A DNA stretch of 27,901 nt, from IMG/VR virus record IMGVR_UViG_3300023301_000071, positions 1 to 27,901 of that record. One strand, 5' to 3'. The stretch comes from a virus. The notes under the pieces are model-generated. The model worked only from the letters and a program-made list of their open reading frames with translations, had not been told where the DNA came from and searched no databases. A program made the translations under genes and the position numbers. Every line of letters starts with the position of its first letter. Within the stretch, counting starts at the first letter, position 1. Positions 4,080 through 27,031 of this stretch are shown in pieces.

Positions 4080-4109
4080 CCCGGATGGGCTTAACAAAGG
4101 AGATTGATG

Positions 4110-4583
4110 ATGACATTCATTGCCTCGCCTTACGAACCAACACACGCTGTGTGTATAGACAACCAAACTGAATTTGATGCCCTGCCCGTAGTCGGTGGGG
4201 TACGGCAATGCCCAACGGCGAAGTACGCTGCAACTATAAAGTTTGGCCCCAACTGTTGGTTTGGCCCCAACTGTTGGTTTTACCCTGCCTGCGTGTTTGG
4301 GGCAGGCTGCGAATTCGCCTACAGATGCATGTTTTCGATAAGCTGCAGTTTTGGGCCTGCCTGCAGGTTCGGTCTTGGTTGCAAGTTCGGCCCACACTGC
4401 CACTTTAGGGCTGGATGCGACTTTGGGTTTGGGTGCGGGTTTAATTCGTCTTGTCGCTTTGACTCTAAATGTCGGTTTGGATATGACTGCACTTGGCAGC
4501 CTGACTGCGCCATTAGCGGCGGCGAATTTGAAGTCGAATGCGATTTCGGCCCCGGCTTGGGCCTTTTACCTGTACGAGCCTAG
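4110..4583 (+). CDS. Cys/Phe hexapeptide-repeat protein, predicted left-handed beta-helix
   Basis: TTG 4104 and ATG 4107 are alternative starts; ATG 4110 is favoured by its 7-base spacing from AGGAG (4098-4102). The 157-residue protein has a short N-terminal domain (1-44). Fifteen uninterrupted hexapeptides follow, with Cys at every sixth residue from 49 to 133 and Phe four residues before each Cys (45, 51 ... 123; Trp at 129). Typical units are CWFGPN and CRFGLG. The C-x-[F]-[G]-x-x spacing fits a left-handed beta-helix of about five three-sided coils with Phe and Cys buried. The gene ending at 121 encodes a close relative. The function is unknown; scaffolding, inhibitor or DNA-mimic roles are only guesses. 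Confidence 0.8.
   Translation: MTFIASPYEPTHAVCIDNQTEFDALPVVGGVRQCPTAKYAATIKFGPNCWFGPNCWFYPACVFGAGCEFAYRCMFSISCSFGPACRFGLGCKFGPHCHFRAGCDFGFGCGFNSSCRFDSKCRFGYDCTWQPDCAISGGEFEVECDFGPGLGLLPVRA
4242..4277 (+). repeat. 18-bp perfect tandem duplication in the hexapeptide-repeat gene
   Basis: Two identical 18-bp copies (4242-4259, 4260-4277) encode two identical hexapeptides, FGPNCW. The exact identity points to recent unit duplication. Confidence 0.9.
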
Positions 4584-4842: not shown

Positions 4843-5040
4843 ATGGGTGAATATGCACACGACGCAATGCGCCAAGAAATTAAGGGCGAACACGGTTTTG
4901 ACATTGGCGAGTATGACGACACCCCGGCTAAGAAGTTTGTGAAGCCGGTTTACAAGCGGGTGAAGTGCCCGCAGTGCGAGGCTAAGCCGAAAGAGGCAGG
5001 GCTACGTGACCATTTGCGTGACAAACACGGCGTGATTTAA
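4843..5040 (+). CDS. small zinc-finger-like phage protein (65 aa)
   Basis: ATG 4843 follows the previous stop by one base, with GGGGG upstream. The N-terminal 40 residues are acidic and polar. The end carries CPQC, then H-L-R-D-K-H: two Cys and two His spaced as a C2H2-type zinc finger (C-x2-C-x11-H-x4-H). This would allow nucleic-acid or protein binding. One finger alone in a 65-residue protein suggests a regulatory accessory factor; the target is unknown. Confidence 0.7.
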   Translation: MGEYAHDAMRQEIKGEHGFDIGEYDDTPAKKFVKPVYKRVKCPQCEAKPKEAGLRDHLRDKHGVI

Positions 5041-5050
5041 GGAGAAATAA

Positions 5051-5233
5051 ATGACTAAAGATGAATTTGATTTTGATACGTGGTTTGACAATTTGTGCAA
5101 CCTAGTGCAGGACAAATGCGGGGTTGAGTTTAGCGACAAAGACTCAGTGCGTGGAGACTACGAAGCGGGCAAAGACTGCTTCGATGTTGCCGATGAAATC
5201 GTGGCCGAGTATGGGGAAGGAGAAACAAAATGA
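5051..5233 (+). CDS. small acidic protein, function unknown (60 aa)
   Basis: The start at 5051 has AAGGAG at 5039-5044. The protein is strongly acidic, with many Asp and Glu and a few aromatic residues (DEFDFDTWFDNL), one feature often seen in phage inhibitors and DNA mimics. That role is not supported further here. The stop overlaps the next gene's ATG (ATGA at 5230). Confidence 0.65.
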   Translation: MTKDEFDFDTWFDNLCNLVQDKCGVEFSDKDSVRGDYEAGKDCFDVADEIVAEYGEGETK

Positions 5234-5724
5234 CTGACAAAGAGGTGATGCGGCAGGCGCTTGCTGCGCTGCAAAGTAATTGCCCTGAATTTGTAAGCGG
5301 CCACCGTGATCCCGTGGATAGCTTCGACGGGGTGCTTGTTGCCGCTGCTATCACAGCCCTGCAAGCCGCTATTGATGCGCCAGCGCAAGAGCCAATAGGC
5401 TATTTGTGGGAGCGCCCAGGTTACTGCGGAGAGCTAAGCACAGACAAAGGACCGAAAGTTGGGTGGACAATAACGCCACTGCATGCCCATTCACAGCCAC
5501 CGCCTACACAAGCGCAGCCAGTGGTGTGGCGGCTACTCAATGTAGTGATTGGATACCGAGGGGTTTTTAGGACCGAAGAAGGTGCGAGGCACATGGCGAA
5601 ACTACACGACAAATTAGGATTTTTTCAAAACGTAGTCACGCCACTTTACCCAGCCCCACAACCAGCACAGCCCGAGTCGCACCCCGCTAAACAAAAAACA
5701 CAACACGGAGAAAACGATGTTTAA
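5230..5724 (+). CDS. phage protein with N-terminal helical repeat and Pro-rich tail (164 aa)
   Basis: The start at 5230 overlaps the previous stop as ATGA and has GGAG at 5219-5222. The N-terminus MTDKEVMRQALAALQ and the later VVTPLYPAPQPAQ match a widespread but uncharacterised phage layout: a short E-A-L-x-A-L helix, a central linker, then a P-L-Y-x-A-P segment. The C-terminal 25 residues are rich in Pro, Gln, His and Lys and are probably disordered. It overlaps the ligase start by eight bases. No function is known to me. Confidence 0.68.
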   Translation: MTDKEVMRQALAALQSNCPEFVSGHRDPVDSFDGVLVAAAITALQAAIDAPAQEPIGYLWERPGYCGELSTDKGPKVGWTITPLHAHSQPPPTQAQPVVWRLLNVVIGYRGVFRTEEGARHMAKLHDKLGFFQNVVTPLYPAPQPAQPESHPAKQKTQHGENDV

Positions 5725-6586
5725 ACCAATGCTAGCAGCAACTGTCACGGACCGTGTCAAACTGCGCTTCCCCCTCATGGCGTCACCAAAGCTTGACGGC
5801 ATCCGCTGTGTTATCCTTGATGGCAAGGTGCTCAGCCGCAGCCTAAAGCCCATACGCAACAAGTTCATACAGGAGCGGTTGCGTGCTTTACCGAATCTCG
5901 ACGGCGAGCTGATCGTAGGGAGCGCTGTTGGGGAAGACGTCTTCAATCGCACTACCCGTGGAGTTATGCCCGCAGATGGTCGTCCTGAGTTTACATACCA
6001 CGTGTTTGATACACTTGACGACCTGTGTCTGCCCTTCCACGTAAGGCTAACTAAAGCCCATGCAAGTTGGCACTCAGACGTCAAAGTAGTTCCCCACACA
6101 ACTGTCTGGACATTAAACGACCTTGGTAAGTTTGAGGCGGAAATGCTTGAAGCAGGTTATGAGGGCGTGATGCTACGGCACCCCGAAGCCTTGTACAAAA
6201 TGGGCCGTGCAACTGCCACAGAAGGTAGCCTTTGGAAACTTAAGCAATTCGCTGACGGGGAGATACTCGTAACTGCGGTGCGCGAGGGCCTGACTAATGG
6301 TAACAAGCCCACAAAAGACGCGCTCGGCGAAACTGTCAGATCAACACATCAAGAAAACATGTTGCCGAGCAACAAAGTGGGTACGATCATTGGAACAGAC
6401 ATCAAAACAGGGCAAACCCTCGAGATTTCCCCCGGCAAAATGACGCATGTAGATCGTGAGCGGTACTGGGCCAACGCTAGCTTAATCGTGGGTAAAATTG
6501 CGAAGTACAAAGCCTTTGTTTATGGTAGCATCGGCGCCCCACGATTTGCAACGTTTCAAGCGTTCCGGGATCCTACAGATATGTGA
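5717..6586 (+). CDS. ATP-dependent DNA ligase
   Basis: This 289-residue enzyme would seal nicks during phage replication through an adenylated lysine. The nucleotidyltransferase motifs are clear: motif I KLDG with Lys25, DGELIV (62-67), FNRTTRG (76-82), YHVFD (94-98), EGVMLR (149-154) and LWKLK (172-176). The remaining about 100 residues form an OB-type domain. The length is that of small phage ligases, somewhat shorter than T7 ligase. The start at 5717 overlaps the upstream gene by eight bases and has GGAG nearby. It ends the early operon; a repeated promoter follows it. Confidence 0.93.
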   Translation: MFKPMLAATVTDRVKLRFPLMASPKLDGIRCVILDGKVLSRSLKPIRNKFIQERLRALPNLDGELIVGSAVGEDVFNRTTRGVMPADGRPEFTYHVFDTLDDLCLPFHVRLTKAHASWHSDVKVVPHTTVWTLNDLGKFEAEMLEAGYEGVMLRHPEALYKMGRATATEGSLWKLKQFADGEILVTAVREGLTNGNKPTKDALGETVRSTHQENMLPSNKVGTIIGTDIKTGQTLEISPGKMTHVDRERYWANASLIVGKIAKYKAFVYGSIGAPRFATFQAFRDPTDM

Positions 6587-9802: not shown

Positions 9803-10464
9803 CAGCACCGGCTACATTCAAAGACCCGTGGGGGTACAGCAAGCTTGAGACACTGGAAAAGTGTCCTCAAAAGTTCAAGTATCAGTTTATCGAGAAGTTA
9901 CCGCAGCCCGGCTCACAGGCTATGGAACGAGGTTCACGGATGCACGAATCCATCGAGTCGTACCTCAACGGCTGGGTAAAAGAGCTGATTCCAGAGTGCC
10001 AGAGCTTCCAGCAAGCTATTGATAGCTTAAAGGGCGAAAAGTTTGTTGCAGAGCAAGCTATTGGCCTTGACAAAAACTGGGCGAAGCTTCCTGATTGGTT
10101 TCATAAGGATACATGGATTCGTGCCAAAGCTGATGCCATGTATATCCATGGCGACGTGCTTGTGGTCGTAGACTTTAAGTCTGGAAAGTATCGTATCCCA
10201 TCAACGGACCAAGTTGAGCTGTACGCAATTGTAGGCGGGGCGATATATCCGGAAGTCAAGCAGGTGACTGCTGAGTACTGGTACCTAGACACTGGTGAAG
10301 TTTACTCAAAGGACTACACCCAAGCAGAGCTTTTTGAGCTTCGCAAAAAGTTCGAGAAGCGTGTAGTTCCGATGTACACCAACACAAATTGGGCGCCGGA
10401 GCCGTCTATGGAATGCAGGTGGTGCCCGTATTCCAAGACCAAAGGCGGGAAGTGTCAGTACTAG
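9799..10464 (+). CDS. PD-(D/E)XK nuclease, RecB/Cas4-like, four-Cys pattern
   Basis: A 221-residue exonuclease-like protein. The core shows Cys22 in EKCPQKFKY, His49, Asp112 in ADAMY, then Asp125 and Lys127 in VDFKSGK, and Gln138 and Tyr142, the order of the PDDEXK_1 family. The C-terminus has Cys206, Cys209 and Cys219 (ECRWCPYSK...GKCQY). One early Cys plus three late Cys is the layout that holds an iron-sulfur cluster in Cas4 and AddB. It overlaps the polymerase stop (ATGA) and the VRR-NUC start by 13 bases. A role in DNA end processing or recombination is likely; the cluster is a prediction. Confidence 0.88.
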   Translation: MTAPATFKDPWGYSKLETLEKCPQKFKYQFIEKLPQPGSQAMERGSRMHESIESYLNGWVKELIPECQSFQQAIDSLKGEKFVAEQAIGLDKNWAKLPDWFHKDTWIRAKADAMYIHGDVLVVVDFKSGKYRIPSTDQVELYAIVGGAIYPEVKQVTAEYWYLDTGEVYSKDYTQAELFELRKKFEKRVVPMYTNTNWAPEPSMECRWCPYSKTKGGKCQY

Positions 10465-10766
10465 AATCTGCGATCGAGCAAGCCTGCCGGGTTGAAGCTT
10501 CCGCGCAGGCTTGCGTTTTGCTCAAAATACAAGGGACTAAAGGCTGGCCCGATCGGATTCTGCTAGCCCCAAATGGGCAGCTTACGTTCATAGAGTTTAA
10601 GCGGCCCCGGGAAGCTTTACGGCCCCTACAGGAACATATACAATGTCTACTAACCCAAATGAACTTTCAAGCACTCCGGATCGACTCAGTCCAAGCGTTC
10701 AAGCAATGCTTGCAGGCTTTGAAAGTCCAACCTGGAAACCGCACGGGTACCAAGAGCGCGGAATAG
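10452..10766 (+). CDS. VRR-NUC domain nuclease
   Basis: A 104-residue protein of the VRR-NUC (PF08774) family of small phage nucleases. GTG 10452 is chosen: it follows a purine-rich AAAGGCGGG stretch and yields MSVLESAIEQAC, a typical opening with Glu5. An ATG further upstream (10389) would overlap the preceding gene by 76 bases. The core shows GWPD (31-34), IEFK (47-50) and LQEHIQCL (59-66), the metal-binding and backbone-cutting pattern of the family. Such genes commonly lie beside polymerase and SNF2 helicase genes in phages. It overlaps the helicase frame for 124 bases. Confidence 0.88.
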   Translation: MSVLESAIEQACRVEASAQACVLLKIQGTKGWPDRILLAPNGQLTFIEFKRPREALRPLQEHIQCLLTQMNFQALRIDSVQAFKQCLQALKVQPGNRTGTKSAE

Positions 10767-12120: not shown

Positions 12121-12140
12121 ACAGCAAACTTACTTGCTGT
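12121..12140 (+). promoter_or_regulatory. 5' leader hairpin, copy 3
   Basis: ACAGCAA pairs with TTGCTGT (7 bp) around the loop ACTTAC. The loop differs from the other copies by one base, and the stem differs only by compensated pairs. Confidence 0.65.
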
Positions 12141-12165
12141 GTTTAACCAAACTTTGAAAGACCCT

Positions 12166-12672
12166 ATGTCCAAACTCTCCATGTCTGCGATCATCCTTGC
12201 CTACAACGCCCTTGCTGTTGCGCAGGGCAAAGAAGAAGTTTCCAGCTTCAAAAACCTTCAAGCTGCGCGTGCAGCCCTTACAACCCTCGAAAGTAACACC
12301 ATGTCCGAAGAAAACCAAGCCCCGCATGATTCCATCGACGCACCACTGATTCCTGATTCTGAAAACACAAGTGGCCCCAAGTACAACACCACCGGCAAGC
12401 GCGGCCCAACTCAGGGTATCGGCGCCTTCTGCAAAAGTATGATTGCCGACGGCAAAACCAATACTGAAATCTTGGCAGAAGTTGCAACGCAGTTTCCTAC
12501 TGCCAAGACCACGGCCAACTGTGTCGCGTACTACCGCGCCAAAATGAAATTGGCAGCTGCGGCAGCGCCAGCTGAAGACGAAGCAGAAGCAGAAGCAGAA
12601 GCAGAAGCAGAAGCAGAAGCACAAGCACAAGCAGAAGCAGAAGACAGCGCACTAGCTACAGACGAAGCATAA
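12166..12672 (+). CDS. phage protein with (EA)n acidic tail, function unknown
   Basis: A 168-residue protein. ATG 12166 has GAAAGACC (12156-12163) upstream; the earlier in-frame ATG at 12139 sits in the leader hairpin and is rejected. The N-terminal 45 residues form one helical unit (AYNALAVAQGKEEV, then FKNLQAARAALTTLE). A polar linker leads to a second domain (about 92-133, GIGAFCKSMIADGKTNTEIL to ANCVAYYRAKMK) that looks like a small helix-turn-helix fold. The tail is a run of Glu-Ala dipeptides from a GAAGCA repeat. It is the only gene between promoter copy 3 and the terminator at 12691, so it is probably strongly expressed. Function unknown; the fold suggests DNA or RNA contact. Confidence 0.75.
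   Translation: MSKLSMSAIILAYNALAVAQGKEEVSSFKNLQAARAALTTLESNTMSEENQAPHDSIDAPLIPDSENTSGPKYNTTGKRGPTQGIGAFCKSMIADGKTNTEILAEVATQFPTAKTTANCVAYYRAKMKLAAAAAPAEDEAEAEAEAEAEAEAQAQAEAEDSALATDEA
12580..12642 (+). repeat. GAAGCA hexanucleotide repeat
   Basis: About ten GAAGCA-type units with a few CAAGCA variants encode Glu-Ala and Gln-Ala dipeptides. Such runs change length by slippage without breaking the frame. Confidence 0.9.
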
Positions 12673-12735: not shown

Positions 12736-13059
12736 ATGGACAGAGCCAAATTTCTTAGCCTAATCGAACCTGCGATTAAGCTCATAGACCGCAAGGGTGA
12801 GGACTACAACAATGTAGTAGCGCTTGAGGAGTACTTCCCCTTCAAAGACCAAAGCTACCAGCAGATGCTGCACATGAAGGTGCTGCGTATGCGATCAGTC
12901 CTTGGCAAAAAAAGCGCACCCAATTTTGATTCGCTTGTTGATTCAGCCTATGACCTAATCAACTACACTGTTTTCTATCTTGACTACCTTGCAAAAGAGA
13001 AGCCTAGCGCAGAAACACAGCCAAACGGGCTAGGAACACCGTACCGGGGCAAGCCATGA
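12736..13059 (+). CDS. Nmad1/DUF1599-like protein (nucleotide modification associated)
   Basis: A 107-residue protein with GGAG at 12723-12726. The sequence runs LIDRKGEDYNN, then FPFKDQSYQQMLHMKVLRM, then FDSLVDSAYDLINYTVFYL, the conserved stations of the DUF1599 family (PF07659). That family has been named nucleotide modification associated domain 1 because of its company with base-modification genes. Its biochemical role is not established. Its stop overlaps the start of the thymidylate synthase homologue (ATGA at 13056), so the two are translationally coupled. Confidence 0.82.
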   Translation: MDRAKFLSLIEPAIKLIDRKGEDYNNVVALEEYFPFKDQSYQQMLHMKVLRMRSVLGKKSAPNFDSLVDSAYDLINYTVFYLDYLAKEKPSAETQPNGLGTPYRGKP

Positions 13060-13880
13060 GTAACTTTGAGCACGACTACCTAGCGCTTGTATGCCGTGTC
13101 ATTGCCCAGGGTACCCGCAGAGCAAGCCGCGCAGGACCTACGCTAAGCTGCTTTGGCGGAGTCCTCCAAATTGACTGCCTAGAGCAGGGTCACTTCCCGA
13201 TTCTCACCCAGCGGCAAGTTCATACAACCGGTGTACTTGGTGAGCTTGCGGCTTTCTTGCGGGGCGCAACAACAGTAGCTGAGTTCAAACAGCACGGCTG
13301 CAACTACTGGGACGCAAACGCAGCTGCGTGGCCCACAAATAAAGACGCGGCCAAGGGCGAACTTTCTGTTGGTAAGATCTACGGGTACCAATGGCGCAGG
13401 TGGGAAGGTAAGCTCGATCAGGTAGCTATGCTGCTAGGAAGTCTGCGCACAAACCCTGAAAGCCGTAGGCACTTGCTTACAACGTACAACCCTGCGCAGC
13501 TAGACGAAATGTGCCTACCCCCCTGCCACTTACTTGCGCAATACAACGTCCGCCGTACTGGCCAGTTAGACTGTATTGTTTACATGCGATCCGTGGACTT
13601 ATGCCTAGGGCTGCCTAGCGATATTGTGCTCTACGCTGCCCTGCTGCTAATTCTTTGCCACGAAACAGGCTACACCCCAGGCAAGCTTACTTTTATGTTG
13701 GGGGACACGCATGTTTACCAAAACCATGTTGGCCAGTTTGCTTTGCACGGGGTACGCGAAATGCGCGCGCTACCCACCTTTGAGCTTGCTGCATGCACTG
13801 TAGACAACTTTGTCCCAAGCAACTTACGGCTTATTAACTATCAACATTCTGGAGCACTTAGCTATGCGTTCAACGTCTAA
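13056..13880 (+). CDS. thymidylate synthase homologue with Asp at the base-recognition site (likely dCMP (hydroxy)methylase)
   Basis: A 274-residue enzyme of the thymidylate synthase fold, transferring one carbon from methylene-tetrahydrofolate to C5 of a pyrimidine nucleotide. The catalytic Cys157 lies in LPPCH, the phosphate-binding Arg178-Ser179 in MRSVD, and GDTHVYQNH (216-224) contacts the sugar. The residue equivalent to E. coli Asn177, which reads uracil, is Asp189 (GLPSDIVLYA). In this family Asn-to-Asp at that place shifts preference to dCMP and is found in T4 dCMP hydroxymethylase. Whether the product is methyl or hydroxymethyl dCMP cannot be read here. Neighbours (Nmad1, MazG-like, dCMP deaminase) fit a dC-directed pathway. 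An unusual true thymidylate synthase remains possible. Confidence 0.85.
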   Translation: MSNFEHDYLALVCRVIAQGTRRASRAGPTLSCFGGVLQIDCLEQGHFPILTQRQVHTTGVLGELAAFLRGATTVAEFKQHGCNYWDANAAAWPTNKDAAKGELSVGKIYGYQWRRWEGKLDQVAMLLGSLRTNPESRRHLLTTYNPAQLDEMCLPPCHLLAQYNVRRTGQLDCIVYMRSVDLCLGLPSDIVLYAALLLILCHETGYTPGKLTFMLGDTHVYQNHVGQFALHGVREMRALPTFELAACTVDNFVPSNLRLINYQHSGALSYAFNV

Positions 13881-14262
13881 TATGATCCACGACGTGGCAG
13901 ACTTCCACGACCTAATTCTGCAAGATGCGCCGGCAGAAGCCCCTTCGCTTATTTCGCTCGAGTACTGCGTAGAGCGTGCGCGCTTTCTTGCTGAAGAGCT
14001 TGATGAGTTCATGGTGGGGGTTGGTGAAAGCGACATGGTAAAAATTGCAGATGCGCTTGCTGATATTGTCTATGTTGCACTAGGCACAGCGCATAAGATG
14101 GGGCTGCCATTTGAGGAAATCTGGGCTGCAGTACAAATTGCCAATATGCAAAAGCAGCGTGGTATTACAAAACGCGGTAACGCAGTTGATGCGGTAAAGC
14201 CTGCCGGATGGGTTGGGCCTGAGGCAGCTATTGCACGAGCTATTGCACGGAAGCTCGCATGA
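13864..14262 (+). CDS. MazG-like / all-alpha nucleotide pyrophosphohydrolase
   Basis: A 132-residue helical enzyme. ATG 13864 has GGAG at 13851-13854 and overlaps the previous gene by 17 bases; a longer frame from 13810 is less likely. Metal ligands follow the family pattern: AEELDEF (Glu44, Glu45, Glu48) and DALADIVYV (Asp63, Asp67), then a closing helix and KPAGWVGPE, typical of phage HisE/MazG-type proteins. The reaction is hydrolysis of an NTP or dNTP to the monophosphate and pyrophosphate. Because T4 uses a protein of this broad fold (gp56, dCTPase) to supply dCMP, dCTP is an attractive substrate, but that is inference from neighbours. Confidence 0.85.
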   Translation: MRSTSNMIHDVADFHDLILQDAPAEAPSLISLEYCVERARFLAEELDEFMVGVGESDMVKIADALADIVYVALGTAHKMGLPFEEIWAAVQIANMQKQRGITKRGNAVDAVKPAGWVGPEAAIARAIARKLA

Positions 14263-14456
14263 AAGTTGTACCATACACCACGCCTGCAGGCATTCAAATT
14301 GGGTGCTGCTACGAAAGCCCAAAACGCATCGATTATTATTCGAACGATGCGTATGCGCTTCAGTCGGCAATTTTGACGCGACCCGGATCAACGTCGCGAG
14401 CCGTAGGCGCCTTGCGGCTGTGTCTTAATCGATGGTTGTCATGCGACCGGACTTAG
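14259..14456 (+). CDS. small phage protein, function unknown (65 aa)
   Basis: The start overlaps the previous stop (ATGA at 14259) and the frame overlaps the deaminase start by 25 bases. The N-terminal half (MKVVPYTTPAGIQIGCCY, then SNDAYALQSAIL) looks like a compact two-strand plus helix unit; the C-terminal half is basic. I do not recognise a family. Coupled overlaps on both sides make it likely to be translated. Confidence 0.6.
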   Translation: MKVVPYTTPAGIQIGCCYESPKRIDYYSNDAYALQSAILTRPGSTSRAVGALRLCLNRWLSCDRT

Positions 14457-14866
14457 CTACTGTGATGCTAGACATTGCCGCTTGTCTAGCACAACGGGCA
14501 ACGTGCGGCAAGCTCGCAGTTGGGTGCGTTTTGGTTGACCGGCAGGGTCGAATTATCGGCAGTGGGTACAACGGAGTGCCCCGTGGTATGACACACTGTA
14601 CTGATGTGGTATGCGCAGGATTCTCAGCCCCAAAAGGCTCTGATGCTTGCATTGCGGTTCATGCCGAACAGAACGCACTTTTGGTGTGCAGAGACCCTGA
14701 GCAAATCGAAACATGCTACACTACGCATGCCCCCTGCCTTCGGTGCACTAAGATGCTCCTAAATACTAGCTGCAAAGCTATTATTTATACAAATGCAGAC
14801 TTTGAGGCACCTGCAAAAGCCCTTTGGCTTGCCGGGAAGCGCTTTTGGCACCAAGTGGCCGCGTAA
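14432..14866 (+). CDS. dCMP deaminase
   Basis: A 144-residue zinc enzyme converting dCMP to dUMP. The catalytic HAE (77-79) and PCLRC (101-105) supply the zinc ligands and the proton-shuttle Glu; an N-terminal part (CGKLAVGCVLV, SGYNGVPRG) matches phage and bacterial dCMP deaminases. ATG 14432 or ATG 14441 may be the start; neither has a strong ribosome site. It is the last gene of the + strand block and ends directly before the second 71-bp inverted-repeat element. Together with the dCMP-specific synthase homologue it controls the fate of dCMP. Confidence 0.92.
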   Translation: MVVMRPDLATVMLDIAACLAQRATCGKLAVGCVLVDRQGRIIGSGYNGVPRGMTHCTDVVCAGFSAPKGSDACIAVHAEQNALLVCRDPEQIETCYTTHAPCLRCTKMLLNTSCKAIIYTNADFEAPAKALWLAGKRFWHQVAA

Positions 14867-23969: not shown

Positions 23970-25403
23970 CTAAGAAGCCGTTCCGCTGATTTGGAGTTGT
24001 GCGCCCATGATGGCTGTCTTCACGGGGTCTGTCATGCTGATCTCGTACACCCTGTCACGCAGCTTCAGGGTCATGCCTAAACGCCGCCAAATAGCGCGCT
24101 TGTAATACTCCCCAATACGACCGATGGATACCCAATGCTCGTTTGACCATGTGTGTCCGCCATCATCTGACCAACGCAACATGACTTGGGGATCACTACC
24201 CTGGCCTTCATTCAAACCGACACCAGATTCAATATCAAGCTGTAAGCTGTGTTGGGCTGTACGCACAAGTTGGTTTTCATTGGGAGCGATTGCACGCCAT
24301 GAACGTAGCCATTTTTGGATTTGGCCATTATCAGCGTAGGTGTTCAGGTCCAACGTATAAACGTTACCATTTTCAAAGTCACCAACAACTACAGCATTTT
24401 GGAAGCTCGCTTGGCAGTTACTACGGTGCCGTGTGAACGCACCATTGATGAAGCCTGCACGGGCGTGCCATGCCTGCGTGGCCACGTCATAGACCCATGT
24501 GGCATTCGCACTCGGGAAAGTCAGCACATAAAACGCATGTCCGTCCTGCTGGTACGTGTAAGCAACCGCGTCTGAAATCACGCCGTAACTCTGGATTTGC
24601 CATTCTATAGCGTGTGTAGAAATTCGTGTGCCAGTGTAGCCGTTCGCCACGTAAACAATCCCGGAGCCACGGGCGTCGGACCCAAGCCAAAACAGGCGGT
24701 TGTCGAGGCGTGCGATCGAATTAGGCGCGGCGCAGCCCAATTCATTGAATGCGCCTTGAATGCGCTCCAGTGGGAAGTCCGCCGCACCTGTATTGTACCA
24801 GACTTCAATGCTATTAGTTCCAAAAAGCCAAGCTTCGCGGTGGTCGACAACCAAGGCCACCAAAGCATCTGGCGCACCCTCTGCAGATGCAAAGTCAAGG
24901 GGGTCGACTGTCGAACCATCCAACAGTGTTGTTACCCATACCCGCTGGCTATTCGGTTCATTGAAAACGAAGTACCCATCAAGGTACGCCACGCTTACCG
25001 CACCCGCAAAATCTGGGTCGGATATAACCGCAAACACGCCCGTGGTACGATTGTAGATATAGCTGGGCCCGTTACAGGCAAAGAAAATCTGAGTGCCGTT
25101 ATCCGCAATTGAAACAGGTCCTGTGCCGGACACGCTACCAATCAAAGTAGGCGTGGCCAACAGACTGCTCAGCTTGTAGACAGCGCTACCAGACACCACA
25201 TAAAGCTCTGCAGCCAATGTCCACAGCGCCCTGATGGGGCCTGTACCAACGGTCTGCTGGAACTTCAACCCTGGAGCACGTTGTAGCCAGCCCAAAGCTT
25301 TGCCGCCTTCGGGCATAACCTCGGGGAACAGATTCACCATGCGGCTATCCGCCGCATTAACACTGCGTGCAACGTAACTAGCGCCTAGTATCTGGGTTTT
25401 CAT
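23970..25403 (-). CDS. packaged-DNA stabilisation protein, P22 gp10-like tail factor
   Basis: A 477-residue protein of nearly the same length as P22 gp10 (about 472). It begins SVNAADSRMVNLFPEVMP, a motif of this family, followed by blade-like repeats (LYVVSGSAVYKLSS, IFFACNGPSYIYN, GHAFYVLTFPSANATWVYD). A C-terminal sheet region (QVMLRWSDDGGHTWSNEHW) ends it. These suggest a beta-propeller tail hub that closes the portal after packaging. The start overlaps the upstream stop (ATGA). The protein is expected in the virion. Confidence 0.88.
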   Translation of the reverse strand: MKTQILGASYVARSVNAADSRMVNLFPEVMPEGGKALGWLQRAPGLKFQQTVGTGPIRALWTLAAELYVVSGSAVYKLSSLLATPTLIGSVSGTGPVSIADNGTQIFFACNGPSYIYNRTTGVFAVISDPDFAGAVSVAYLDGYFVFNEPNSQRVWVTTLLDGSTVDPLDFASAEGAPDALVALVVDHREAWLFGTNSIEVWYNTGAADFPLERIQGAFNELGCAAPNSIARLDNRLFWLGSDARGSGIVYVANGYTGTRISTHAIEWQIQSYGVISDAVAYTYQQDGHAFYVLTFPSANATWVYDVATQAWHARAGFINGAFTRHRSNCQASFQNAVVVGDFENGNVYTLDLNTYADNGQIQKWLRSWRAIAPNENQLVRTAQHSLQLDIESGVGLNEGQGSDPQVMLRWSDDGGHTWSNEHWVSIGRIGEYYKRAIWRRLGMTLKLRDRVYEISMTDPVKTAIMGAQLQISGTAS

Positions 25404-27031
25404 TTGTTGAATGCGTTTGGTGTGGCTTTAAGGCCCTCAACGGCTATATCAAATTCACTGCGTGTGTAAAACCTTGGCAAAACATCGCGTAGTAACCTGG
25501 CACCAGCTGGTGTGATACCCGCTTTCTGTAAGTCCTTCGGGCCCATCATCCCAGCATTACGTATATCACCTACGCTCAGCCAATCTCCAGACCTGATAAA
25601 ATCTTGAACTGCAGGCAGGTATTTTGCGGCGGGTGCCCCATTGCCCTTACCTTTGATTTGCAAAATGCTGGGCATACCATTCGGTATCGGCTCAACTTCA
25701 ATTGTTACGTGTGGCTCCCCTTTTGCGTCGCGCAACGAGAAAATCTGCTGGTCACCAGCTGCTACGCTCGAACAATAGCCACCCACGCAATGCCCCATCG
25801 TGTCGCCCTCGTACTTGAGCGCGGCCTGCAGTGAAGCTTGGTTGGTGGCCCCTTCCGGCTGACGTAACTGCCGCCATGAAAGGCCTTGTTCCGGGTAATC
25901 TTTATGTAGAAACGTGGCCTCATTATTTGCCAGCGCCTTGTTTGTGTCCGCCTTGTTTGCGGCCCTCCAAGCGTTTATCTTAGCAACACGTTCTACAGCT
26001 TGCGGCACAGACACCTGCGCCAAGCTTTCTGGTTTAAGCTGTAGGTGTGCGGGCAATCCTGATGCGGGGTTTGTGGCGTTACGCAGTTCATCGATAAGAT
26101 GCGTGAACCCAATATTGTACGGCTTGTGTGCCAGATGCACAGGCGTATCTGGCGGGACTTTTGCAAGCCATGCGTTGTGCTCCAAACGTGCCGCGGGACG
26201 CAGATCACGATCGAACGTCTTGCGCAGTAAACCGCCAGCGGACTCTGTAGGCAAATGTTGGTCGACCGTGTAGTCCCACCGCTTAGCTAAATCTGATACG
26301 GCTGGCGCAGTTTGCCCCGGCCTAAGGTCTTTGCCGTACCCTATAGGTACCGCTAGTGCGTCCGGCCCTATATGCAAAATGCCCCGCTCAGCCAAAGCCC
26401 TAACAGGGTCATTTTGTGTGCCCATGTCGTTCTTGACGTACCTAGTGAGCTGCTTGTCAATCCAGGTGTCAAGCAGCGGATCTGTATTAGAACGGCTGCG
26501 AGACTGTTTTAGGTAAAACTCGGGAGCCTCTGTAACAAGCCCGCCATCCACACCTTCTGGTCGTGGGCTAAGCCAGTTACCACCGGGTGTTTTAATGACA
26601 CCAGCTTCGGAGCGCAGCGTAGTGGGCGCTGCTAGGTTTTTGGCTCCAGTTGCTGCTGCTCGTTGCGCCAGTGCAGCAGTTTGTTGTGGGGCCATTGTGA
26701 GGGCACCTGTTGCAAGATCCCCCACCAAGTCCGCAGTGGGGTTACCTGTAGTGACGATAGAACCCAAGTGCTTTTCAGCTAGTTCCATGAGATGCTCAGA
26801 CCCAAAAACGGGGCGGGTTTGCTTTTGGCCTAGCACAGCACGCTTGAGCATGACAGGGAGATTGGCCATATCAGCGGGTGCCCCAGCTAACATTAGTGCG
26901 GCCCGATTACCCACAGACGAAGCATTACGCCCTATAGACTTCCAAAATCCAGGGTCTTGCATGGCTCCAAGAAATGACGGCGCCACAAACGCATTAGTCG
27001 CGGGAGCTTTGTTGAATGCGTTTGCGGCCAT
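25400..27031 (-). CDS. PcfJ-domain protein within the tail operon (polyvalent-like)
   Basis: A 543-residue protein between the gp4-like and gp10-like genes, where P22 has none. Its C-terminal part holds MGHCVGGYC (412-420), IFSLRD (430-435), PHVTIEV (440-446) and LQIKGKGN (457-464), the stations of the PcfJ-like domain known from conjugative elements and phage polyvalent proteins. The first 400 residues are helical and unrecognised. The motif NAF appears at residues 4-6 and 13-15, and NAFNK at both 4-8 and 539-543. The start has AGGT-type pairing upstream. It may be a virion-carried protein delivered to the host; its biochemical activity is unknown. Confidence 0.78.
   Translation of the reverse strand: MAANAFNKAPATNAFVAPSFLGAMQDPGFWKSIGRNASSVGNRAALMLAGAPADMANLPVMLKRAVLGQKQTRPVFGSEHLMELAEKHLGSIVTTGNPTADLVGDLATGALTMAPQQTAALAQRAAATGAKNLAAPTTLRSEAGVIKTPGGNWLSPRPEGVDGGLVTEAPEFYLKQSRSRSNTDPLLDTWIDKQLTRYVKNDMGTQNDPVRALAERGILHIGPDALAVPIGYGKDLRPGQTAPAVSDLAKRWDYTVDQHLPTESAGGLLRKTFDRDLRPAARLEHNAWLAKVPPDTPVHLAHKPYNIGFTHLIDELRNATNPASGLPAHLQLKPESLAQVSVPQAVERVAKINAWRAANKADTNKALANNEATFLHKDYPEQGLSWRQLRQPEGATNQASLQAALKYEGDTMGHCVGGYCSSVAAGDQQIFSLRDAKGEPHVTIEVEPIPNGMPSILQIKGKGNGAPAAKYLPAVQDFIRSGDWLSVGDIRNAGMMGPKDLQKAGITPAGARLLRDVLPRFYTRSEFDIAVEGLKATPNAFNK
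25403..25419. repeat. 17-bp direct repeat, right-hand partner at 27008
   Basis: This 17-bp sequence is identical to 27008-27024. The two copies lie at the 3' and 5' ends of the PcfJ-domain gene and both encode NAFNK in the - strand frame with the same codons. Confidence 0.85.
27008..27024. repeat. 17-bp direct repeat, partner of 25403
   Basis: Identical to 25403-25419 and in the same orientation. Together the copies bracket almost the whole PcfJ-domain gene. Confidence 0.85.

Follow-up and report, generated by a model that had tools for sequence, protein, structure and literature searches.

Complete replacement of cytosine by 5-methylcytosine (5mC) is known from Xanthomonas phage Xp12, whose DNA is reported to contain 100% 5mC (PMC7653180), and is suspected in the relatives of Xp12, among them Stenotrophomonas phage AXL1, whose DNA is reported to be cut by only 5 of 31 enzymes (PMC9206674). 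Work on modified viral contigs describes thymidylate synthase (TS) domains alongside PRA-PH and deoxycytidine monophosphate (dCMP) deaminase domains, often specific to those contigs; it gives Asp177 (Escherichia coli TS numbering) as a mark of contigs with modified cytosine, and reports that changing Asn to Asp at this place switches TS to dCMP (PMC8670742). Here we consider a set of genes at positions 12736-14866 of the window, which is one whole IMG/VR virus record (IMGVR_UViG_3300023301_000071) of 27,901 bases, and which encodes a TS homologue with Asp at this base-reading position. The likeliest reading is that the gene set is a 5mC pathway like that of Xp12, driven by a TS of a separate lineage.

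An earlier note on this DNA had named four genes here, and all four are found where it put them, on the plus strand; its list was incomplete, as an open reading frame (ORF) of 65 amino acids between the MazG and deaminase genes went unmentioned. The genes overlap or are closely spaced, in the order Nmad1, TS, MazG, 65-amino-acid ORF, dCMP deaminase:

12736..13059, plus strand: Nmad1 (DUF1599-like), 107 amino acids (PF07659 at 20.3 bits, cut-off 25; PHROG 18404 at 1e-14; 29-row alignment)
13056..13880, plus strand: TS homologue, 274 amino acids, predicted dCMP C5-methylase, nucleophile Cys157 (PF00303, E=6.1e-71)
13620..13622, plus strand: codon for Asp189, which reads the base and corresponds to E. 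coli Asn177, from the alignment with E. coli ThyA and T4 gp42, computed from the gene start at 13056
13864..14262, plus strand: MazG-type nucleoside triphosphate pyrophosphohydrolase, its start overlapping the TS end (PF01503 at 55.7 bits, cut-off 21.3)
14259..14456, plus strand: 65-amino-acid ORF, function not assigned, its start overlapping the MazG stop
14432..14866 (likelier start 14441), plus strand: dCMP deaminase (PF00383 at 61 bits, cut-off 25; HAE, PCxxC and GYNG motifs)

The TS homologue is a member of the thymidylate synthase superfamily (PF00303 at 239.1 bits over residues 7-271, cut-off 24.3). In an alignment of the window protein with E. coli ThyA, T4 gp42, T4-like td and phage relatives, its Asp189 falls on Asn177 of E. 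coli and on the Asp of the T4 dCMP hydroxymethylase gp42, as had been proposed from the sequence. The protein therefore lacks the Asn at 177 that marks canonical TS, which uses deoxyuridine monophosphate (dUMP), and carries the Asp that marks dCMP-directed enzymes, while Cys157, Arg137, Arg138, Arg178, Ser179, His219 and Tyr221 are all retained. Columns 143, 147 and 177 (E. coli numbering) were excluded from a quick tree that we built of 92 rows. Loci that were repeats, truncated or nearly identical to others were left out of it, and a group of 23 marine-type Phe147 loci, all closely related, was represented by six. In this tree the window TS belongs to a 38-row clade (SH-aLRT, the Shimodaira-Hasegawa-like approximate likelihood ratio test, 97), together with cultured Edwardsiella phage KF-1 and MW202744, and all 38 rows have Asp. 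It lies outside a second all-Asp set of 7 rows (SH-aLRT 99), made up of the Xp12 relatives AXL1 and Mallos with JWX, RDJL1 and three contigs, and also apart from the gp42 type, T4 gp42 and contig L028 being long branches whose placement is unsure. Six changes between Asp and Asn at 177 are required on this tree, at least three of them forced by starred branches. Within the 38-row clade the checked catalytic columns are invariant (column 21 is gapped in 4 rows), as is Leu143, and column 147 is His in 28 rows, Phe in 9 and Tyr in 1; because the catalytic columns do not vary, the clade's TS homologues look like active enzymes with a changed base-reading residue.

The neighbours of Asp-type and Asn-type TS genes also differ. 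A viral contig scan with a TS-only alignment, in which the best 80 of 424 relatives were taken, gave 79 loci, 44 of Asp type and 35 of Asn type. Neighbours were counted on the same strand within 5.5 kilobases (kb), after the second TS copy on contig L069 and repeated loci from the same contig had been dropped. MazG lies close to 36 of the 44 Asp-type genes and 0 of the 35 Asn-type genes, Nmad1 to 33/44 versus 0/35, and dCMP deaminase to 35/44 versus 2/35; many of these loci are interrelated and some are truncated, so that a Fisher test on the counts overstates their independence. Phe147 types account for 26 of the 44 Asp loci, mostly as one tight marine-type group ordered MazG-Nmad1-TS-deaminase, and six of the 44, some of them cut short, have neither MazG nor Nmad1 nearby. 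In a smaller locus set, itself part of a wider one, MazG accompanies 1 of 5 Asp-type and 0 of 6 Asn-type genes. Among 28 whole records chosen by TS or polymerase similarity, PF01503 occurs in 12, all within the 17 records with an Asp-type TS, and in none of the 11 with Asn type only. The order Nmad1-TS-MazG-deaminase is seen again in relatives of the window and, with this order recurring and no clade member departing from Asp, the gene set is real, beyond chance.

These counts bear on whether the cassette might simply perform ordinary thymidylate (dTMP) synthesis, with the deaminase supplying dUMP, MazG clearing deoxyuridine triphosphate (dUTP) and TS methylating dUMP despite its Asp. The gene content does read as a normal pathway to thymidine triphosphate (dTTP), and the protein shares with canonical TS (E. 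coli ThyA, T4-like td) its fold family and the checked catalytic residues, differing in the change of Asn177 to Asp; DR2231, a relative of the window MazG, is moreover the subject of a paper whose title gives it 'exclusive activity on dUTP'. However, the fixation of Asp in 38 of 38 rows, the absence of MazG and Nmad1 from the surroundings of all 35 Asn-type genes, and the published switch of TS to dCMP use by this very substitution (PMC8670742) make this the least probable of the explanations that we weigh here.

Side observations on TS genes concern three of the records. MW202744 has a gene annotated 'bifunctional dihydrofolate reductase-thymidylate synthase' (329-1339, L036), which might have been a second, canonical TS; this was rejected, as neither PF00303 nor PF00186 matches there; the single PF00303 match of this record lies elsewhere and the annotation is probably wrong. 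Contig L069 has two Asp-type TS genes (4950-5825 and 9843-10718), about 4.9 kb apart and equal at 279 of 292 residues, which represent either a true duplication or two strains assembled together. In Microbacterium phage Triscuit (L060) two TS homologues adjoin, gp67 with Asn177 and the divergent gp66 with Asp at that place.

Nmad1 offers a comparison of a different kind. The earlier note had called this gene Nmad1/DUF1599; the protein is indeed one of a distinct and well-conserved family of phage proteins, and the DUF1599 part of the name falls below the Pfam cut-off, in the window as in its relatives, so that we file it as DUF1599-like only. A scan with Nmad1 gave 23 loci, 8 of them on contigs also present in the TS scan, and Asp was found in 20 of the 20 in which TS could be read at the key position (L164 and L166 have no TS in reach, and in L161 TS stops before that position). 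Window Nmad1 matches gp64 of AXL1 in its C-terminal part; gp64 is a MazG-Nmad1 fusion encoded directly before the TS of this Xp12 relative. Nmad1 also directly precedes a gp42-type gene in three T4-like Serratia phages (PS2, Muldoon and SP1) and in Cronobacter phage VP8; in PS2 the product of the gp42-type gene agrees with T4 at 143, 147 and 177 (Asp, Thr and Asp), and glucosyltransferase genes adjoin it. Nmad1 is found, then, beside TS homologues of three lineages whose common feature is Asp177, and in our view no other comparison speaks so well for dCMP as the substrate. A counter-example to Nmad1 always standing beside an Asp-type TS is OX376641, where a remote Nmad1-like ORF has no TS, MazG or deaminase gene in the 8.3 kb read.

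Thus our finding of an all-Asp clade with intact catalytic residues, whose TS genes co-occur with MazG, Nmad1 and deaminase genes, and of Nmad1 beside both Xp12-relative TS and gp42, suggests that dCMP is very probably the substrate of the window TS homologue. The dCMP-directed set proposed in the earlier note is upheld to this extent, and can be refined as to the product. Hydroxymethylation by T4 gp42 is described as having a signature, with Asp/Glu placed three before the catalytic Cys and Ser/Thr two before the active-site Tyr, and gp42 as missing the TS-type C-terminal tail (PMC6400193). The window protein has Leu154 where T4 has its water-activating Asp145 (Leu in all 38 clade rows), it reads K-I-Y, with no Ser-x-Tyr, and it keeps the C-terminal tail, clade members ending for example in Y-x-F-N-V. 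Because of these three features 5-methyl-dCMP is the likelier product than 5-hydroxymethyl-dCMP. The scanned proteins of the window and of contig L027 with its second part, L053, include no glycosyl- or carbamoyltransferase, which fits a plain methyl group.

The enzyme could instead be a dCMP hydroxymethylase, making 5-hydroxymethyl-dCMP as gp42 does, for DNA with 5-hydroxymethylcytosine that is left as it is or further modified by genes lying beyond the fragment. With gp42 it shares Asp177 and, in Muldoonvirus phages, an Nmad1 neighbour, Nmad1 standing before gp42 in PS2, Muldoon, SP1 and VP8; the phages AXL3, L030 and MW202621, whose replication genes are related, also have the hydroxymethylase Asp. 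We consider this unlikely, given the invariant Leu at the Asp145 place, the missing Ser two before Tyr, the retained tail and the scanned proteins, free of glucosyltransferases and other such transferases. In phages with a related polymerase (L028/L029) the TS homologue has Asp143, Asn147 and Asn177 and may be a dUMP hydroxymethylase; as AXL3, L030 and MW202621 have the hydroxymethylase Asp, and L028 has Asp143 with Asn177, the pyrimidine-modifying enzyme seems to differ from one phage with this replication module to another. Cytidine monophosphate (CMP) is an unlikely substrate: the CMP hydroxymethylase MilA, which also has Asp at the base-reading position, is reported to have Arg126 changed to Lys and Ser167 to Ala (PMC5175136), whereas the window keeps this Arg and Ser, which favour deoxynucleotides (Arg137, Ser179).

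Regarding the two partner enzymes, the predicted MazG-like pyrophosphohydrolase is confirmed by its PF01503 match and retains the acidic metal-site residues (EE..E and a D..LxD pattern). A T4 gp56-type fold, as the earlier note had suggested, holds at superfamily level only, dUTPase_2, HisE and MazG being described as sharing a common all-alpha fold; the families differ, gp56 belonging to dUTPase_2 (PF08761) and the window protein to PRA-PH/MazG. By sequence, its best solved matches are 3nl9 and DR2231. The likelier start is the ATG at 13864, where the L027 homologue aligns, the alternative being a TTG at 13810. The assignment of the dCMP deaminase likewise stands: the HAE and PCxxC zinc motif and the GYN allosteric motif (as GYNG) are present, and this enzyme may act on dCMP and/or 5-methyl-dCMP. 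Its Trp132 aligns with Trp128 of AXL1, the same number being given for Xp12; this Trp occurs in 31 of 31 aligned rows with a letter at that place, and is therefore not diagnostic of methylated-substrate use. The 65-amino-acid ORF before it has no Pfam, PHROG or NCBIfam match, and shows a 46% match over 41 residues at a different place in L027.

From the observed sequence, residues, clade and neighbours we infer the enzyme activities and the modified DNA as follows. The MazG-type enzyme, perhaps with Nmad1, would convert deoxycytidine triphosphate (dCTP) to dCMP; the TS homologue, reading the base via Asp189, would transfer a methyl group from methylene-tetrahydrofolate to C5 of dCMP, giving 5-methyl-dCMP; host kinases would raise this to 5-methyl-dCTP; and the phage polymerase would insert it into DNA in cytosine's place. 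The deaminase would turn dCMP into dUMP and/or 5-methyl-dCMP into dTMP, and the outcome would be restriction-resistant DNA. We put the probability that the cassette redirects the infected cell's cytosine nucleotide pool to the C5-methylated form in this way, giving 5mC DNA, at about 0.6.

Several points weigh against this. At positions 143 and 147 the Xp12-relative methylases carry a polar residue and Pro, where the window has Leu and His, and because of this unlikeness our call for a methyl group rests on the absence of hydroxymethylase features. The proposed cleavage of dCTP by the window MazG sits uneasily with the dUTP-only title given to its relative DR2231. A dihydrofolate reductase (DHFR) gene was not found beside the cassette, though host DHFR could serve; in 15 records there was one DHFR match only, below the cut-off, in AXL1. 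The thymidylate-kinase family PF02223 was matched in 0 of 16 records, other kinase families not having been profile-searched in whole records; as far as tested, the window thus has neither the monophosphate kinase nor the glycosyl enzymes that the earlier note had reported as missing.

A further possibility is that the phage DNA is ordinary and that 5-methyl-dCMP is only an intermediate in thymidylate supply, with the deaminase completing dTMP. dCMP deaminases are reported to act on 5-methyl-dCMP, and the Xp12 enzyme to make dTTP from 5-methyl-dCTP (PMC12088426); the window deaminase is encoded within this cassette and carries the Trp singled out in that work. We judge this improbable, slightly more so than hydroxymethylation, since the pairing of MazG with Nmad1 is explained less well by it, the Trp is shared by every aligned deaminase with a letter there, and Xp12 is reported to combine the same logic with full 5mC replacement.

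The closest known systems include the Xp12 genes for cytosine methylation, compared here through AXL1 (gp64-gp61). The window and AXL1 both have MazG and Nmad1 domains, an Asp-type TS (Asp177) and a dCMP deaminase side by side. The window differs in that its TS is of a separate clade, with Leu/His at 143/147 and not the AXL1-type polar residue and Pro, that MazG and Nmad1 are separate genes flanking TS, and that no DHFR gene was found. Two cultured phages are also close in TS: Edwardsiella phage KF-1 (TS-MazG-deaminase), of the same all-Asp clade, and Pelagibacter phage Kolga (Nmad1-TS-MazG), whose TS is outside the tree rows, both have Asp177, Leu143 and His147. Nmad1 was not found in KF-1, nor an adjacent deaminase in Kolga. 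Since cultured phages with such an enzyme exist, the prediction is testable at once: they should resist many restriction enzymes yet be open to 5mC-dependent ones. The literature that we searched, including passages of PMC11043334, gave no restriction data on KF-1-like phages. If the prediction is true, a second, sequence-distinct TS lineage works with the same partners, and the trait is much commoner than one textbook case.

Considering Nmad1 more widely, its pairing with Asp-type TS in three lineages points this otherwise uncharacterised protein to a definite role that can be put to the test. We tentatively suggest, as a possibility held with much less confidence than the 5mC pathway itself, that a widespread lineage of small-genome phages may replace most or all cytosine with 5mC by means of a non-Xp12 TS lineage and draw its thymine from 5-methyl-dCMP via the deaminase, bypassing uracil nucleotides; and that Nmad1 may in general be a dedicated partner of enzymes that modify dCMP at C5, whether methylases or T4-type hydroxymethylases, for example by binding dCTP or dCMP and passing it on. 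The Nmad1 model has three long helices (predicted local distance difference test score, pLDDT, 79.7). Its top structural match is AF_0060 (2p06; Z 9.2, root-mean-square deviation 3.0, 82 aligned), HisE and MazG chains follow at Z 5.8-6.9, mixed among unrelated helical rows, and Foldseek gave no match at E<=0.001. The model hints at an all-alpha pyrophosphatase fold, within the chance range for helical proteins. Further phage matches to Nmad1 come by tally only (Streptomyces 2, Bacteroides 1). A scan of bacterial genomes gave at least 14 distant matches (26-35% identity), those listed all being Bacteroidota-named; these give no host for the phage. In the papers found that name Nmad1 or DUF1599, phage DNA modification is not a topic, going by titles and abstracts, and a literature search on dCMP methylase together with Nmad1 gave nothing further.

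The window itself is probably a fragment, because neither terminase nor portal was seen among its proteins. Its left half, on the plus strand, has replication genes (VapE-type primase-helicase, DNA ligase, family A polymerase, PD-(D/E)XK exonuclease and SNF2-type helicase), and its right half, on the minus strand, has lysis and structural genes. A DpoZ-type polymerase, as in 2-aminoadenine phages, was ruled out for the window polymerase (score 162, cut-off 500). Positions 1-24999 had no DNA-level match in 50,697 phage records by megablast. By polymerase the closest contig is L027 (36,070 bases), with 83% polymerase and 63% TS identity; it is probably near complete, because its L053 part has a terminase gene by Pfam and, on reading by eye, genes that resemble those for portal and capsid.

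Other observations in the window include a TTG-start ORF at 4104-4583 with many F-G-x-x-C-x-F units, which resembles a short repeat protein and has no PHROG match. Between helicase and Nmad1, the protein encoded at 12139-12672 is kept in L027, L024 and L003, matches four unknown PHROGs and has a long Ala-Glu repeat at its end. Amid the structural genes, a protein at 25400-27031 on the minus strand has a PcfJ-like domain (37.6 bits, cut-off 25). In L027, positions 5318-5758 encode a pyrimidine-dimer DNA glycosylase (PF03013, 46.9 bits).

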